In this document: one piece after another, positions 7,683 through 33,481 of the stretch
Layout: the number at the start of each line of letters is the position of its first letter
Numbering within the stretch: the stretch's first letter is position 1
From: Actinomycetota bacterium
Lineage (GTDB): Bacteria > Actinomycetota > CALGFH01
Direction: 5' to 3'
DNA: 33,481 nucleotides
NCBI GenBank assembly: GCA_036280995.1
Contig: DASUPQ010000331.1
Span: forward strand, 1-33,481
The notes under the pieces: generated by a model
Seen by the model: the letters and a program-made list of their open reading frames with translations, nothing else
Databases searched by the model: none
What the model was told of the DNA's origin: nothing
Translations under genes and position numbers: made by a program

Positions 7683-8342
7683 TCAGCCATGGGCCAGGAC
7701 GCGATCGAGCGGCCGAGGCACGCTCGTCAGATCCAGCGCGTCGACGAGCAACCGCGCGTAGCGGATCTTGCGGCCGCTGTGGGTGCCGATGAAGCGCCGA
7801 AGCTGCTGCTGGCGGCTCCGTCCCTGCCAGGCGGGCTGCTGCTGGAAGGTGCGGAACGATCCAAGCTCGCCCTGGGCCTCGACGACCTGTTCCACACCGG
7901 CGGCACCCAGGCAGCGGATCAGCTCGTCCTCCAGGTCGGCGACGCACACGTAGAACCCGAGCGCTTCCATGTCGGCGCGACCGAGGCTGGAGCCGAGGCC
8001 GGCCCGCTCCAGACCGCGCCGGAAGTCGCCCTCCGCACCGGCGTCACACAGGCCCGCCAGTCCGCGGTTCAAGCCCTGGGAACCGAACAGCTCCAGGAAG
8101 CGTCGGATGTTCCTGGCCCCGCCCATTGGCACCACGGCAACGCCCTCGGCGGCAAGCTCTCGACCACGGCGCGCAGCCAGCGCCTGGAGCGCGACCTGGT
8201 CGCTGATCCCCTCAACCAGCACGACCGTCCGTGGGTCGACGCTGGCGGCCAGGGCGTGTGCTGCCGCGGCGACCAGCGGAGCCTCTCCGCCGCCGGCCAG
8301 CGACCCGACGGCTGCCGGCGGGAATCGCTGCTTGTCGTTCAC
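7683..8342 (-). CDS. Stand-alone TOPRIM-domain protein (OLD-nuclease-like C-terminal part)
   Basis: A 219-residue protein resembling the TOPRIM half of OLD-family nucleases without their N-terminal ATPase. The TOPRIM core reads TVVLVEGISDQVALQAL with the metal-binding Glu, then GVAVVPMGGARNIRRFLELF, and GLAGLCDAGAEGDF where Asp of the usual DxD survives and the second position is altered (DAG). TOPRIM enzymes cut or join nucleic acid with Mg; whether this one is active is unknown. The start is GTG 8342, 4 bases downstream of the transpeptidase stop, so it may be the second gene of that transcript. Three 60-base stretches counted by hand are 67-70 percent GC, lower than the neighbours (82 percent in one transpeptidase line), which could reflect later acquisition. 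Confidence 0.75.
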   Translation of the reverse strand: MNDKQRFPPAAVGSLAGGGEAPLVAAAAHALAASVDPRTVVLVEGISDQVALQALAARRGRELAAEGVAVVPMGGARNIRRFLELFGSQGLNRGLAGLCDAGAEGDFRRGLERAGLGSSLGRADMEALGFYVCVADLEDELIRCLGAAGVEQVVEAQGELGSFRTFQQQPAWQGRSRQQQLRRFIGTHSGRKIRYARLLVDALDLTSVPRPLDRVLAHG

Positions 8343-27996: not shown

Positions 27997-28056
27997 TGCC
28001 CCGCCCGTAACTCGCGCAGCAGCGGAGCAAACAAGCGGTCCCGTAGCATGGGACGG

Positions 28057-29343
28057 ATGACCGGAACGGGACCTGTCCGGGTGGCGATCGCCTGCCAGGG
28101 CGGCGGCAGCCACACCGCCTTCACGGCCGGGGTGCTCAAGCGCCTCCTCGGCGCCGAGGAGCTGGCCGGGGTCGAGGTCGTCGGTCTCAGCGGCACCTCC
28201 GGCGGGGCCGTCTGCGCCCTGCTCGCCTGGTCGGCGCTGCTCGACGACGACCAGGCCGCCGCCGGCAAGCTGCTGGAGGCGTTCTGGGCCGACAACTCGG
28301 CCACGACCCCGCTGGAGCAGCTGGTCAACGCCTGGGTGCTGTGGGCGGCCAGGCTGGAGAACCTGGTCGTCCTGCCGGCGGTCAGCCCCTACGACACGCC
28401 AACGTCGGTGGCCGCTCTTGAGGAGTTCCGGGCCATGCTGGAACGGCGGGTCGACTTCGGGCGGTTCGCCGTCCCGGCCGGCGAGTCGCGGCCGATGCTG
28501 CTGATCGGGGCCGTGGACGTCCTCTCGGGCGAGTTCCGGGCGTTCAACAGCCGTCGCGACCCGATCACCGCCGACACGATCCTGGCCTCGGCGGCCATCC
28601 CCAACCTGTTCCGCTCCGTCCGGGTCGGCGACGGCACCTACTGGGACGGCCTGTTCTCCCAGAACCCGCCCGTCCGGGAGCTGGTCGACACCCGCCCCGA
28701 CGAGCTCTGGGTGATCCAGATCAACCCCAGGCGCTGGGACGGGGAGCCGCGGACGATGGTCGAGATCGCCGACCGCCGCAACGAGCTGGCCGGCAACCTC
28801 TCCCTGCACCAGGAGCTCGGCTTCATCGAGAAGATCGACCAGCTGCTGGCCGAGGGCCGGCTGGCCGCCGACGGCCGCTACAAGCAGATCACGGTGCGGG
28901 TGCTGGAGCTGTCCCGGTCGCGGCTGTCCCGGTCGCTCGGCACCGCCTCCAAGCTCAACCGCGACCCCGGCTTCATCCGCGACCTGATCGCCCACGGCGA
29001 GGCCATGGCCGAGGAGTTCCTGGCCGCGCTGGCCTTCGAGCGCGCCTGGCGGCGCCGCGACCCCGGGGCGGTGCTGGCCTGCTTCGCCGACGACGCCGAG
29101 CTGGTCTCGGCGCCGCCCTTCCCGGACCGGGGCAGCCTCCGCGGCCGCCAGCGGATCGGCCGGTTCGTGCGCGAGCACCTGACCGCCGACCTGCACGTCG
29201 ACCCGACCCGCAAGCAGGTGACCCGTGACCGGGTGACCTGGACCGTGCAGGCCCACCGCGACGACCCGGCGGCGGCGGTCCGGGGCCGGGCCGAGGCCGA
29301 GCTCCGGACAGGCCGGATCACCACCCTGCGCCTGGGCGGCTGA
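28057..29343 (+). CDS. Patatin-like phospholipase fused to a SnoaL/NTF2-like domain
   Basis: A 428-residue protein. Residues 1 to about 320 are a patatin-type lipid acyl hydrolase with a Ser-Asp dyad: the oxyanion loop CQGGGSHTAF, Ser48 in GTSGG, and Asp197 in YWDGLFSQNPPV. The last hundred residues (FERAWRRRDPGAVLACFADD, LRGRQRIGRFV, a closing beta stretch) look like a SnoaL/NTF2-fold domain, commonly a small-ligand pocket or dimer module. The frame is continuous across the join. ATG 28057 is taken as start; ATG 28048 is in frame too. TAGCAT at 28044-28049 could be a -10 for a leaderless mRNA starting near 28057. The stop abuts the convergent phosphoesterase stop with no gap. Confidence 0.85.
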   Translation: MTGTGPVRVAIACQGGGSHTAFTAGVLKRLLGAEELAGVEVVGLSGTSGGAVCALLAWSALLDDDQAAAGKLLEAFWADNSATTPLEQLVNAWVLWAARLENLVVLPAVSPYDTPTSVAALEEFRAMLERRVDFGRFAVPAGESRPMLLIGAVDVLSGEFRAFNSRRDPITADTILASAAIPNLFRSVRVGDGTYWDGLFSQNPPVRELVDTRPDELWVIQINPRRWDGEPRTMVEIADRRNELAGNLSLHQELGFIEKIDQLLAEGRLAADGRYKQITVRVLELSRSRLSRSLGTASKLNRDPGFIRDLIAHGEAMAEEFLAALAFERAWRRRDPGAVLACFADDAELVSAPPFPDRGSLRGRQRIGRFVREHLTADLHVDPTRKQVTRDRVTWTVQAHRDDPAAAVRGRAEAELRTGRITTLRLGG

Positions 29344-30072
29344 TCAGGCCGGGGCGTCCTCGGCGTCGAAGCGGAACACCTCGTAGGCGCGGCCGATCAC
29401 GGGGGCGGCGACGTTGCGCACCGGCACCCCGCCGGGGGTGGTGCCGGTGCGGCTGCCCCGGTGGGCGTGGCCGTGCAGGACCAGGTCGGCCCCGGCCCGG
29501 TCGACGGCCTCGGCCAGCAGGTAGCTGCCGAGGAAGGCGTGGATCTCGCGGGGCTCGCCGGCCAGGGTCTCGGCCACCGGCGAGTAGTGCAGCAGGGCGA
29601 TCCGGCGGTCCGCCCGGAGCCCCCCGAGGGCCCGTTCCAGCCGGCCGGCCAGGGTCTTGGTGTGGCCGACGAACGCCTTCATCTCCGGTTCGCCGAAGTC
29701 GCTGGCGCTGGCCCCGGCGAAGCCGCCGCCGAACCCCTTGCTGCCGGCGATCCCGAGCCGGCGGCCGCCCACCTCCAGCACCGCCGCCTCACCCTCCAGG
29801 ACGCGGATGCCGGCCTCCTCGAGGACCTCGGTGACGGCGTCCTGCTCGTCGGAGTGGTAGTCGTGGTTGCCGAGGACGGCCACCGTCGGCACCCCGACGC
29901 CGCGCAGCTCCTCGGCCAGCACCTTGGCCTCCTCGGGCCGGCCCCGGTGGGTGAGGTCGCCGGCCAGCAGGAACAGGTCGGCGTGGTCGGCCAGGCCGGC
30001 CAGGCGCGGGGCCAGGCGGCCCGCCGAGTCGACCCCGACGTGGACGTCGCCGACGGCCGCCACCCGGATCAT
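29344..30072 (-). CDS. Metallophosphoesterase (calcineurin-like)
   Basis: A 242-residue calcineurin-like phosphoesterase with all metal motifs: GDVHVG (Asp9, His11), GDLTHRG (Asp39), GNHDYH (Asn69, His70), LLHYSP and HGHAHRG. The length and compact ending fit the small single-domain members; cyclic nucleotides, nucleotides and phosphodiesters are typical substrates, and none can be singled out. Start ATG 30072 overlaps the stop of the nucleotidyltransferase-BON gene as ATGA, so the two are translated from one mRNA. A nucleotidyl-adding enzyme coupled to a phosphoesterase suggests opposing activities, but this is speculation. Confidence 0.9.
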   Translation of the reverse strand: MIRVAAVGDVHVGVDSAGRLAPRLAGLADHADLFLLAGDLTHRGRPEEAKVLAEELRGVGVPTVAVLGNHDYHSDEQDAVTEVLEEAGIRVLEGEAAVLEVGGRRLGIAGSKGFGGGFAGASASDFGEPEMKAFVGHTKTLAGRLERALGGLRADRRIALLHYSPVAETLAGEPREIHAFLGSYLLAEAVDRAGADLVLHGHAHRGSRTGTTPGGVPVRNVAAPVIGRAYEVFRFDAEDAPA

Positions 30073-30971
30073 GGCAGCGTCTCTACGAACGGGTCGGCCG
30101 CCGCGTCCTCGACGTCGGTCAGGTTGCGGACCTCCCGGCCGGGCAGGGCCTTGGCGATGACCTCGGCCACGGCGGCCTGCCGTTCGGGCGTGGCCACCGT
30201 CCCGGTCACCACCACCTCGCGCCCGTCGATGGCGACGTCCAGCTCCAGCTCGGCCGTCTGGGGGTCGCCGGCCAGGGCCTCGTTGGCGTGGGCGACCAGG
30301 TACTCGTCGGGCACGTCGGCGCCGGTCTCCTGCTCGCGGGCCTGCTCCAGCAGCGACTCGATCACCCAGTCGGGCACCCGCAGCCCGTCGGTCTGGGCGT
30401 ACAGCAGCAGGCTGGCCACCCGGCGCGGGCCCGGGGCGGCCCGGCGCAGCAGGTAGGGCCAGTCGAGCTCGCCCGTCTCGACCAGGGCGAGGGCGTCGAA
30501 CCAGTGCCGCTGGCGGTGCTCGCGGTGGACGATCGCCTTGATCACCAGCAGGTCCTCGGGGCCGAGGACGTTGAGCTGGAGGTCCTCGAAGGTGCCCTGG
30601 CGGACCCGCGACAGCATCTCGTCGTCGAGCACGATCCCGCCGGTGCTCTCGAAGATCACGTCGACCAGGACGCCGTCCTTGGTCGCCTTGTAGAGCCAGG
30701 TCTGGTCGGTCTCCTCGGTGTCGTAGCCGGCGTCGGCGAAGGCGCGCAGCATCGTCCGGGCGTCGTCGCGGCGCACGCACAGGTCGATGTCGTGGGTCCA
30801 GCGGGGCCGGCCCAGCGCGGTCGAGGCGATCCCGCCCATGAAGGCGTGCGGCAGGCCGGTGCCGCCGGCGACCGCGATGGCCTCGGTGAGCACCCGCAGG
30901 AAGGTCTCCTCGTCGACCTCGGGAAGGGTGCCCCGCCACTCGCGCTCGTGGGGGTGGTGCTCGTCGTCCAT
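30069..30971 (-). CDS. Nucleotidyltransferase-fold protein with C-terminal BON domain
   Basis: A 300-residue two-domain protein. Residues about 20-180 have the Pol-beta-like nucleotidyltransferase signature: GG at 46-47 in FMGGIASTALG, the metal pair Asp61 and Asp63 in THDIDLCV, and the third acidic residue Asp104 in VDVIFE, so the active site looks complete. A helical stretch (LLVIKAIVHREHRQRHWFDA) follows, as in antitoxin- or toxin-type members. Residues about 224-288 form a BON domain (ELELDVAIDGREVVVTGTVA, then AEVIAKALPGREVRNL). BON domains usually occur in envelope or stress proteins, and no signal peptide is seen here. ATG 30971 has only a weak AGGA upstream. It diverges from the antiporter gene and overlaps the phosphoesterase. 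Confidence 0.82.
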   Translation of the reverse strand: MDDEHHPHEREWRGTLPEVDEETFLRVLTEAIAVAGGTGLPHAFMGGIASTALGRPRWTHDIDLCVRRDDARTMLRAFADAGYDTEETDQTWLYKATKDGVLVDVIFESTGGIVLDDEMLSRVRQGTFEDLQLNVLGPEDLLVIKAIVHREHRQRHWFDALALVETGELDWPYLLRRAAPGPRRVASLLLYAQTDGLRVPDWVIESLLEQAREQETGADVPDEYLVAHANEALAGDPQTAELELDVAIDGREVVVTGTVATPERQAAVAEVIAKALPGREVRNLTDVEDAAADPFVETLP

Positions 30972-32705: not shown

Positions 32706-33481
32706 ATGGCTGTCGATGCAGACGTGCTGGAGCGGATCCGCGAGCGGCTGCGGGTGTCGACCCGGGTCGGGGACGAGCGGATCGAGGTCGCGACCCGCGA
32801 CGCCGACGTGGTCCTGCTCGGGGCCGTGGCCTCGCCGGAGGAGGCGACGGTGGCCGGCCAGCTGGCCGAGGAGTACGCCACCTCGGTGGTGAACGAGCTC
32901 CAGGTCGACCGGGGCCTGCGCGAGGGCTTCGACGACGACCCGCTGGCCACCGAGCCCGCCTCCCCGACCGAGGACGAGGTCCTGGTCGGGTCGACCGACA
33001 TGCTGGCCGGTCCCGACTCGGCCCCGACCCAGGACCTGGCCGAGGCCCTTGACGAGAACGAGCCCTGGACCCCGCCGGACGTGCCCCAGCTGGCCCCGAC
33101 CGCGACCGAGCAGCGCGGCGGCGTGGCCGCCGCCGACCGGCTCGCCCTGTCGGAGTGGGACGAGGCCGGCGGCGACCCCGACGACCTGCTCGACGAGGAG
33201 GACCGGGCCGCCCGGGCGGGCGCCGCCGCCCCCGACCTGGCCGCCGCCGATCTCCGCCACGCCGCCGGCGGCGGCGAGCTGCCCGCCCTCGACCCGACCG
33301 CCGCCACCTCCGGCGGCGACCCGGAGGCGGAGCCGCCCAGCGTCGAGGGCGGTCGCGGCGACGACATGGTCGAGCAGGTCCCCGGCACGGCCAAGGGCCC
33401 GGGCGCCGTGGGCGAGCCCACCACCGGGGGCGGCCCCCTGGGCGGCACCCCGGCCACCGAGACCGGCGCCGTGGGCGCCGA
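32706..33481 (+). CDS. BON-domain protein with long acidic, low-complexity tail (3' end missing)
   Basis: This reading frame is open from ATG 32706 to the right edge, giving at least 258 residues. GAGGAGGG lies about 9 bases upstream of the ATG. Residues about 5-70 form a BON domain (DVLERIRERLRVSTRVGDER, then VVLLGAVASPEEATVAGQLA and VVNELQVDRGL). The rest is rich in Asp, Glu, Ala, Gly and Pro (PTEDEVLVGSTDM, EWDEAGGDPDDLLDEEDRA, GGGPLGGTPATETGAVG) and is probably disordered. No signal peptide or membrane helix is visible in the part seen. It follows the antiporter by 65 bases on the same strand. Function is unknown; BON domains are thought to bind phospholipid membranes. Confidence 0.72.
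   Translation, partial: MAVDADVLERIRERLRVSTRVGDERIEVATRDADVVLLGAVASPEEATVAGQLAEEYATSVVNELQVDRGLREGFDDDPLATEPASPTEDEVLVGSTDMLAGPDSAPTQDLAEALDENEPWTPPDVPQLAPTATEQRGGVAAADRLALSEWDEAGGDPDDLLDEEDRAARAGAAAPDLAAADLRHAAGGGELPALDPTAATSGGDPEAEPPSVEGGRGDDMVEQVPGTAKGPGAVGEPTTGGGPLGGTPATETGAVGA

Follow-up and report, generated by a model that had tools for sequence, protein, structure and literature searches.

In actinobacterial genomes the gene for a minimal nucleotidyltransferase (NT) lies beside that for a calcineurin-like metallophosphoesterase (MPE) in a linkage that is real and old, and that goes beyond chance since the two genes adjoin in 52 of 56 assessable genomes and, where the NT matched at E<1e-30, in 37 of 37. 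Our tentative interpretation is that the module nt-bon-mpe encodes a widespread and not yet described cycle of reversible nucleotidylation. A MenT-like transferase would mark a nucleic-acid end or a protein, a phosphodiesterase would erase the mark, and a cytoplasmic BON protein would act as adaptor, in actinobacteria and, in BON-less form, in alphaproteobacteria.

Linkage of the two genes across genomes

The NT search covered 397 genomes of the phylum, of which 100 gave some match. MPE was searched independently of NT in 394 genomes, and 57 matched at E<=1e-40 with a single copy each. Adjacency was scored by hand from coordinates, and one genome (G211) was set aside as the locus met a contig end. 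The 52 genomes with adjoining genes span 21 families; the four with an MPE and no adjoining NT (G018, G083, G200, G333) belong to three. A survey of conserved linkage had been named beforehand, in the preliminary description of this DNA, as a test that could refute the pair, and its outcome speaks for the pair. Nonomuraea (L126) carries BON-MPE with no NT detected nearby, and the genus g37 has distant NTs and no MPE of the kind studied here. Taken with the four genomes above, these cases mean that either half can occur alone.

The genes occur as nt-bon-mpe, nt-mpe and bon-mpe-nt, and in convergent and divergent arrangements. On the MPE tree, a quick tree with several forks open, at least 8 changes of arrangement are required (NT loss being one kind), and most pairs stay together; a single clade with 100% SH-aLRT support holds all BON loci. 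Distances among NT proteins co-vary with those among MPE proteins (Mantel r 0.55, a value reached in 0 of 2000 permutations; 0.42 between families), a correlation that shows shared history and is not proof of interaction. Because the genes are found side by side across many families in several gene orders, NT and MPE very probably work together. At two loci (L057 and L048; G146 and G213) two different NT genes flank one MPE.

Among the Alphaproteobacteria, NT and MPE are adjacent in Rhizobium, Ensifer, Sinorhizobium, Azospirillum, Skermanella and Sphingobium. These pairs are located on plasmids or second replicons, and BON is absent from them. Carriers include organisms in laboratory use, namely Sinorhizobium meliloti (on pSymB) and Streptomyces; at the module of Streptomyces fungicidicus the existing annotation reads nucleotidyltransferase, BON and metallophosphoesterase. 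EcfG (general stress) promoters ahead of the alphaproteobacterial NT genes were considered and rejected: the motif lies on the right strand and just upstream in Sphingobium only, and in the other loci it is missing, on the opposite strand or within the NT gene.

The NT-BON gene and its overlap with mpe

The stretch of DNA analyzed here, the window, is 33,481 nucleotides long. Its NT-BON gene (30069..30971, (-)) begins with ATG and encodes a fused protein of 300 aa. The nucleotidyltransferase domain, of the NTP_transf_5/DUF2204 kind (aa 1-215; 30327..30971, (-)), was assigned from Pfam, alignments, the AlphaFold model of NT-BON (pLDDT 91, pTM 0.74) and Foldseek. Both NTP_transf_5 (PF14907; 42.8 bits, 6e-11) and DUF2204 (PF09970; 36 bits, 7e-9) score over their curated cut-offs on the window protein, and at E<=0.01 they match 41/41 and 40/41, respectively, of the NT relatives. 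The nucleotidyltransferase site that had been described as complete, with GG, DxD and a third Asp, is intact (G46-G47, D61xD63, D104). In the alignment of 41 homologues D61, D63 and D104 are all invariant, as are W92 and W171.

The MPE (29344..30072, (-); 242 aa) was assigned from Pfam Metallophos (PF00149; 57.3 bits against a cut-off of 21.5, 4e-15) and Foldseek, and its AlphaFold model, like that of NT-BON, is confident (pLDDT 93). All metal-ligand positions are present (D9, H11, D39, N69, H162, H200, H202, H204), and the ligands are invariant among the homologues in the alignment. It is better conserved than NT, with a median identity of 46% against 29%. Between the window and a second genome of the genus, dN/dS is ~0.40 for NT and ~0.20 for MPE; the BON part gives ~0.85, from a small segment with too few changes to judge.

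As had been reported, the stop of NT-BON overlaps the start of mpe as ATGA, exactly at 30069..30072 on the (-) strand. The NT-BON frame closes ...ACG CTG CCA TGA, with the stop TGA at 30071-30069, and the ATG of mpe at 30072 sits inside the NT-BON 3' end. The overlap is likely to reflect translational coupling, and 4-nt overlaps occur at one or both nt/bon/mpe junctions in many relatives. The N-terminus of NT-BON is not hydrophobic, and for this reason NT-BON and MPE are most likely both cytoplasmic. Neither protein attains the cut-off of any NCBIfam model, and Rfam gave no match near the locus.

The BON domain and its fusion to NT

The BON domain (aa 222-287; 30111..30308, (-)) scores slightly below the Pfam cut-off of 27 when the whole protein is searched (PF04972, 23.6 bits) and above it when the segment is searched alone (27.1 bits). 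The BON profile matches 22/22 homologous segments or genes, the best at 3e-11, and a BON-family profile retrieves DolP, OsmY and Rv0899 among PDB entries. On these profile searches, which had been put forward as a second way in which the description could fail, the BON assignment is genuine. Two features bear on a possible membrane role of BON. An obvious signal peptide is absent, and the lipid-binding residue of DolP BON2, given as Trp127 (PMC7806268), corresponds in the profile alignment to a conserved Tyr (Y224) in the window BON. The C-terminal tail of BON proteins, E-x-[L/V/I], is conserved (bon genes of L047-L084). Conservation of the E-x-L tail is due in part to an embedded ribosome-binding site for mpe, although three loci with no bon-mpe overlap retain the tail as well. 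A second BON-domain protein is encoded at 32706-33479 (+), past the Na+/H+ antiporter gene, and is open at the window end; it has an N-terminal Pfam BON match (2.5e-8) followed by a long low-complexity tail, and is 86% identical in the sister genome.

Actinobacteria most often carry the module as separate nt, bon and mpe genes in this order, in most cases overlapping by 4 nt. A separate bon stands between nt and mpe in most BON-bearing relatives, and many lineages are without BON. The fusion of NT to BON, as noted in the preliminary description, recurs in the second genome of the genus (L002 in G001, 91% identical), where fusion and overlap are identical in form, and in one other family (L046 in G289); a scan of genome contigs returned the close relative as the sole match. 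An assembly error is therefore unlikely, given the same fusion in the second genome, and judged by its distribution the fusion is a local variant of the module. Where nt sits downstream (L080, L084) or is undetected (L126), bon remains directly 5' of mpe. The fusions suggest that the NT and BON proteins act jointly.

Neighboring genes

The window pair is flanked by a divergent Na+/H+ antiporter gene and a convergent patatin gene (28039-29343, (+)), which encodes a patatin-like phospholipase fused to a SnoaL-like domain and abuts the MPE stop. Among the loci examined, these flanks accompany the pair within the genus only, and no general third partner of NT and MPE was found in loci outside it.

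Repair-type genes lie near the module in some lineages only. Topoisomerase IB (TopIB), a single-copy gene present in 31/56 genomes, adjoins the module in six genomes of three families (f8, f66, f47) and in Nonomuraea, and is ~5 kb away in one f39 genome. The TopIB-flanked loci, from four lineages, are L049, L052, L059, L060, L063, L064 and L126, the last being the BON-MPE locus of Nonomuraea. In three f2 genomes mpe is followed directly by a LigD Prim-Pol gene, and two of the three have an ATP-dependent ligase gene alongside; in Ensifer ligase genes are near the NT-MPE pair. Prim-Pol is found somewhere in the genome in 41/56. We judge that such neighbors exceed random placement by a good margin, though they are lineage-specific. 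An apparent MPE-PrimPol fusion in L061 was discarded because a stretch of N in the sequence accounts for it.

Folds and proposed function

Known substrates of minimal nucleotidyltransferases include tRNA and antibiotics. By Foldseek, the closest structures to NT are MenT1 (TMt 0.64), LnuA (0.64) and ANT(2'') (~0.65), with TM1012 also similar; profile search agrees with these fold matches, and MenT1 is nearest by both. The MenT/AbiEii toxins (MenT1, PDB 8an4/8an5; PMC10435456) share with NT the minimal nucleotidyltransferase fold, the DxD and the third Asp. However, the partner of MenT is the MenA antitoxin, whereas that of the window NT is MPE, with or without BON, and the AbiEii/DUF1814 Pfam profile does not match the window protein. 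The lincosamide and aminoglycoside nucleotidyltransferases LnuA and ANT(2'')-Ia are alike in fold with a weak profile match; unlike them, the window NT stands in a conserved chromosomal operon with MPE, which is not resistance-like. For MPE, Rv0805 and PptH are the nearest structures (TMq up to 0.71), and GpdQ and LpxH are also alike. In the PptT/PptH pair of M. tuberculosis a transferase is opposed by an MPE-fold phosphodiesterase, since PptH (Rv2795c; PDB 6unc) cuts a phosphodiester put on by a transferase (PMC8557913). PptT is a phosphopantetheinyl transferase, whereas the putative writer of the window is a nucleotidyltransferase, and in the profile search MPE matched none of the PptH chains, the likeness lying in the fold alone.

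The pairing of a possible nucleotidyl-adding enzyme with a possible remover, as first described, is consistent with active sites that are intact and with the structures matched by the models. We hypothesize, with rather less than even confidence, that nt and mpe, with bon where present, encode opposing enzymes, a writer and an eraser, with BON as an accessory. Opposing action on one acceptor would be the simplest reading because the active sites are complete and the genes have been kept together through rearrangements. According to this hypothesis NT would use an NTP to attach NMP to an acceptor, forming a phosphodiester that MPE, with its phosphodiesterase-like fold, would hydrolyse, and BON would tether or regulate NT beside MPE. 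Candidate acceptors are an RNA or DNA end, a protein or a small molecule; nucleic-acid ends handled under stress seem the likelier, because genes for TopIB, LigD-type primase-polymerase and ATP-dependent ligase are near in several lineages.

The combination of BON with DUF2204 has been counted before: Table 1 of Bryant et al. (2020, PMC7806268) enters it as cluster 10 with 80 proteins, 77 of them from Actinobacteria. Domain pair and phylum are as here, and the table assigns neither a function nor a metallophosphoesterase partner; a description of the three-part module was not found there. Nor did the open-access papers searched yield one joining NT, BON and metallophosphoesterase, an earlier mention elsewhere being possible. 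In the literature searched, a dedicated enzymatic eraser beside a minimal nucleotidyltransferase, across two phyla, has not been described. If true, our hypothesis would give a testable function to the DUF2204/NTP_transf_5 family and to cytoplasmic BON proteins.

Alternative explanations

The resemblance of NT to MenT1 in fold and profile also suits a toxin-antitoxin system, in which a MenT-like NT would modify tRNA or another target and either MPE, by enzymatic reversal, or BON would be the antitoxin. Consistent with this, a close NT is never without MPE while MPE is at times alone, the asymmetry expected of a harmful NT. Toxin-antitoxin action through enzymatic reversal would be a special case of writer and eraser chemistry; we regard it as a serious rival, and yet as unlikely overall. 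MPE is present as a single copy per genome in an ordinary chromosomal setting, phage records have no copy, and MPE rather than NT is the more conserved partner; the distant NTs of g37 do without MPE. Moreover, a MenA/AbiEi-type antitoxin is absent beside the window NT, whose neighbors are MPE and the Na+/H+ antiporter and whose conserved partners are BON and MPE, and AbiEii, which misses the window protein, matches 11/41 of its relatives. The repair-type neighbors could alternatively mean that the two enzymes, instead of writing and erasing a mark, form a route of nucleic-acid repair in the style of LigD end-healing and polymerase, with MPE cleaning blocked 3' ends and NT adding to them. The Prim-Pol, ligase and TopIB loci listed above point this way. 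We consider it unlikely, because at most loci such neighbors are missing even though Prim-Pol is common in the genomes, the one apparent fusion is spurious, and NT is of the MenT/LnuA/ANT kind and no polymerase.

The presence of LnuA and ANT(2'') among the closest structures, together with a weak Pfam Aminoglyc_resit match to the window NT and to 27/41 relatives, would also suit a metabolic or detoxifying pair, NT adenylylating a small molecule (an antibiotic or an intermediate) and MPE processing the product. Such a role is improbable: the spread of the pair tracks families and is unlike that of mobile resistance genes, an enzyme conferring resistance does not require a conserved remover, and no common biosynthetic cluster surrounds the pair. 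Finally, the patatin-SnoaL protein, convergent with MPE and abutting its stop, could be the effector of CBASS-like signaling, with NT producing a cyclic nucleotide and MPE degrading the signal. This is very improbable, since patatin and antiporter were not found beside the pair outside the genus, PADLOC gave no NT match, CD-NTases rank far below MenT and LnuA in the NT fold search, and the CBASS lipase model reached only E=0.13. The suggestion of a defense pair in the preliminary description, and with it the CBASS reading, was consequently dropped: no defense model gave a useful match, the patatin is not conserved beside the pair, 50,697 phage records gave no hits, and the neighbors of the module are ordinary, stress or repair genes. 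Viral contigs scanned with MPE gave two distant relatives and nothing closer. Elsewhere in the window, Pfam places an OLD-like TOPRIM domain (2.4e-11) in a small protein encoded at 7683-8342 (-).
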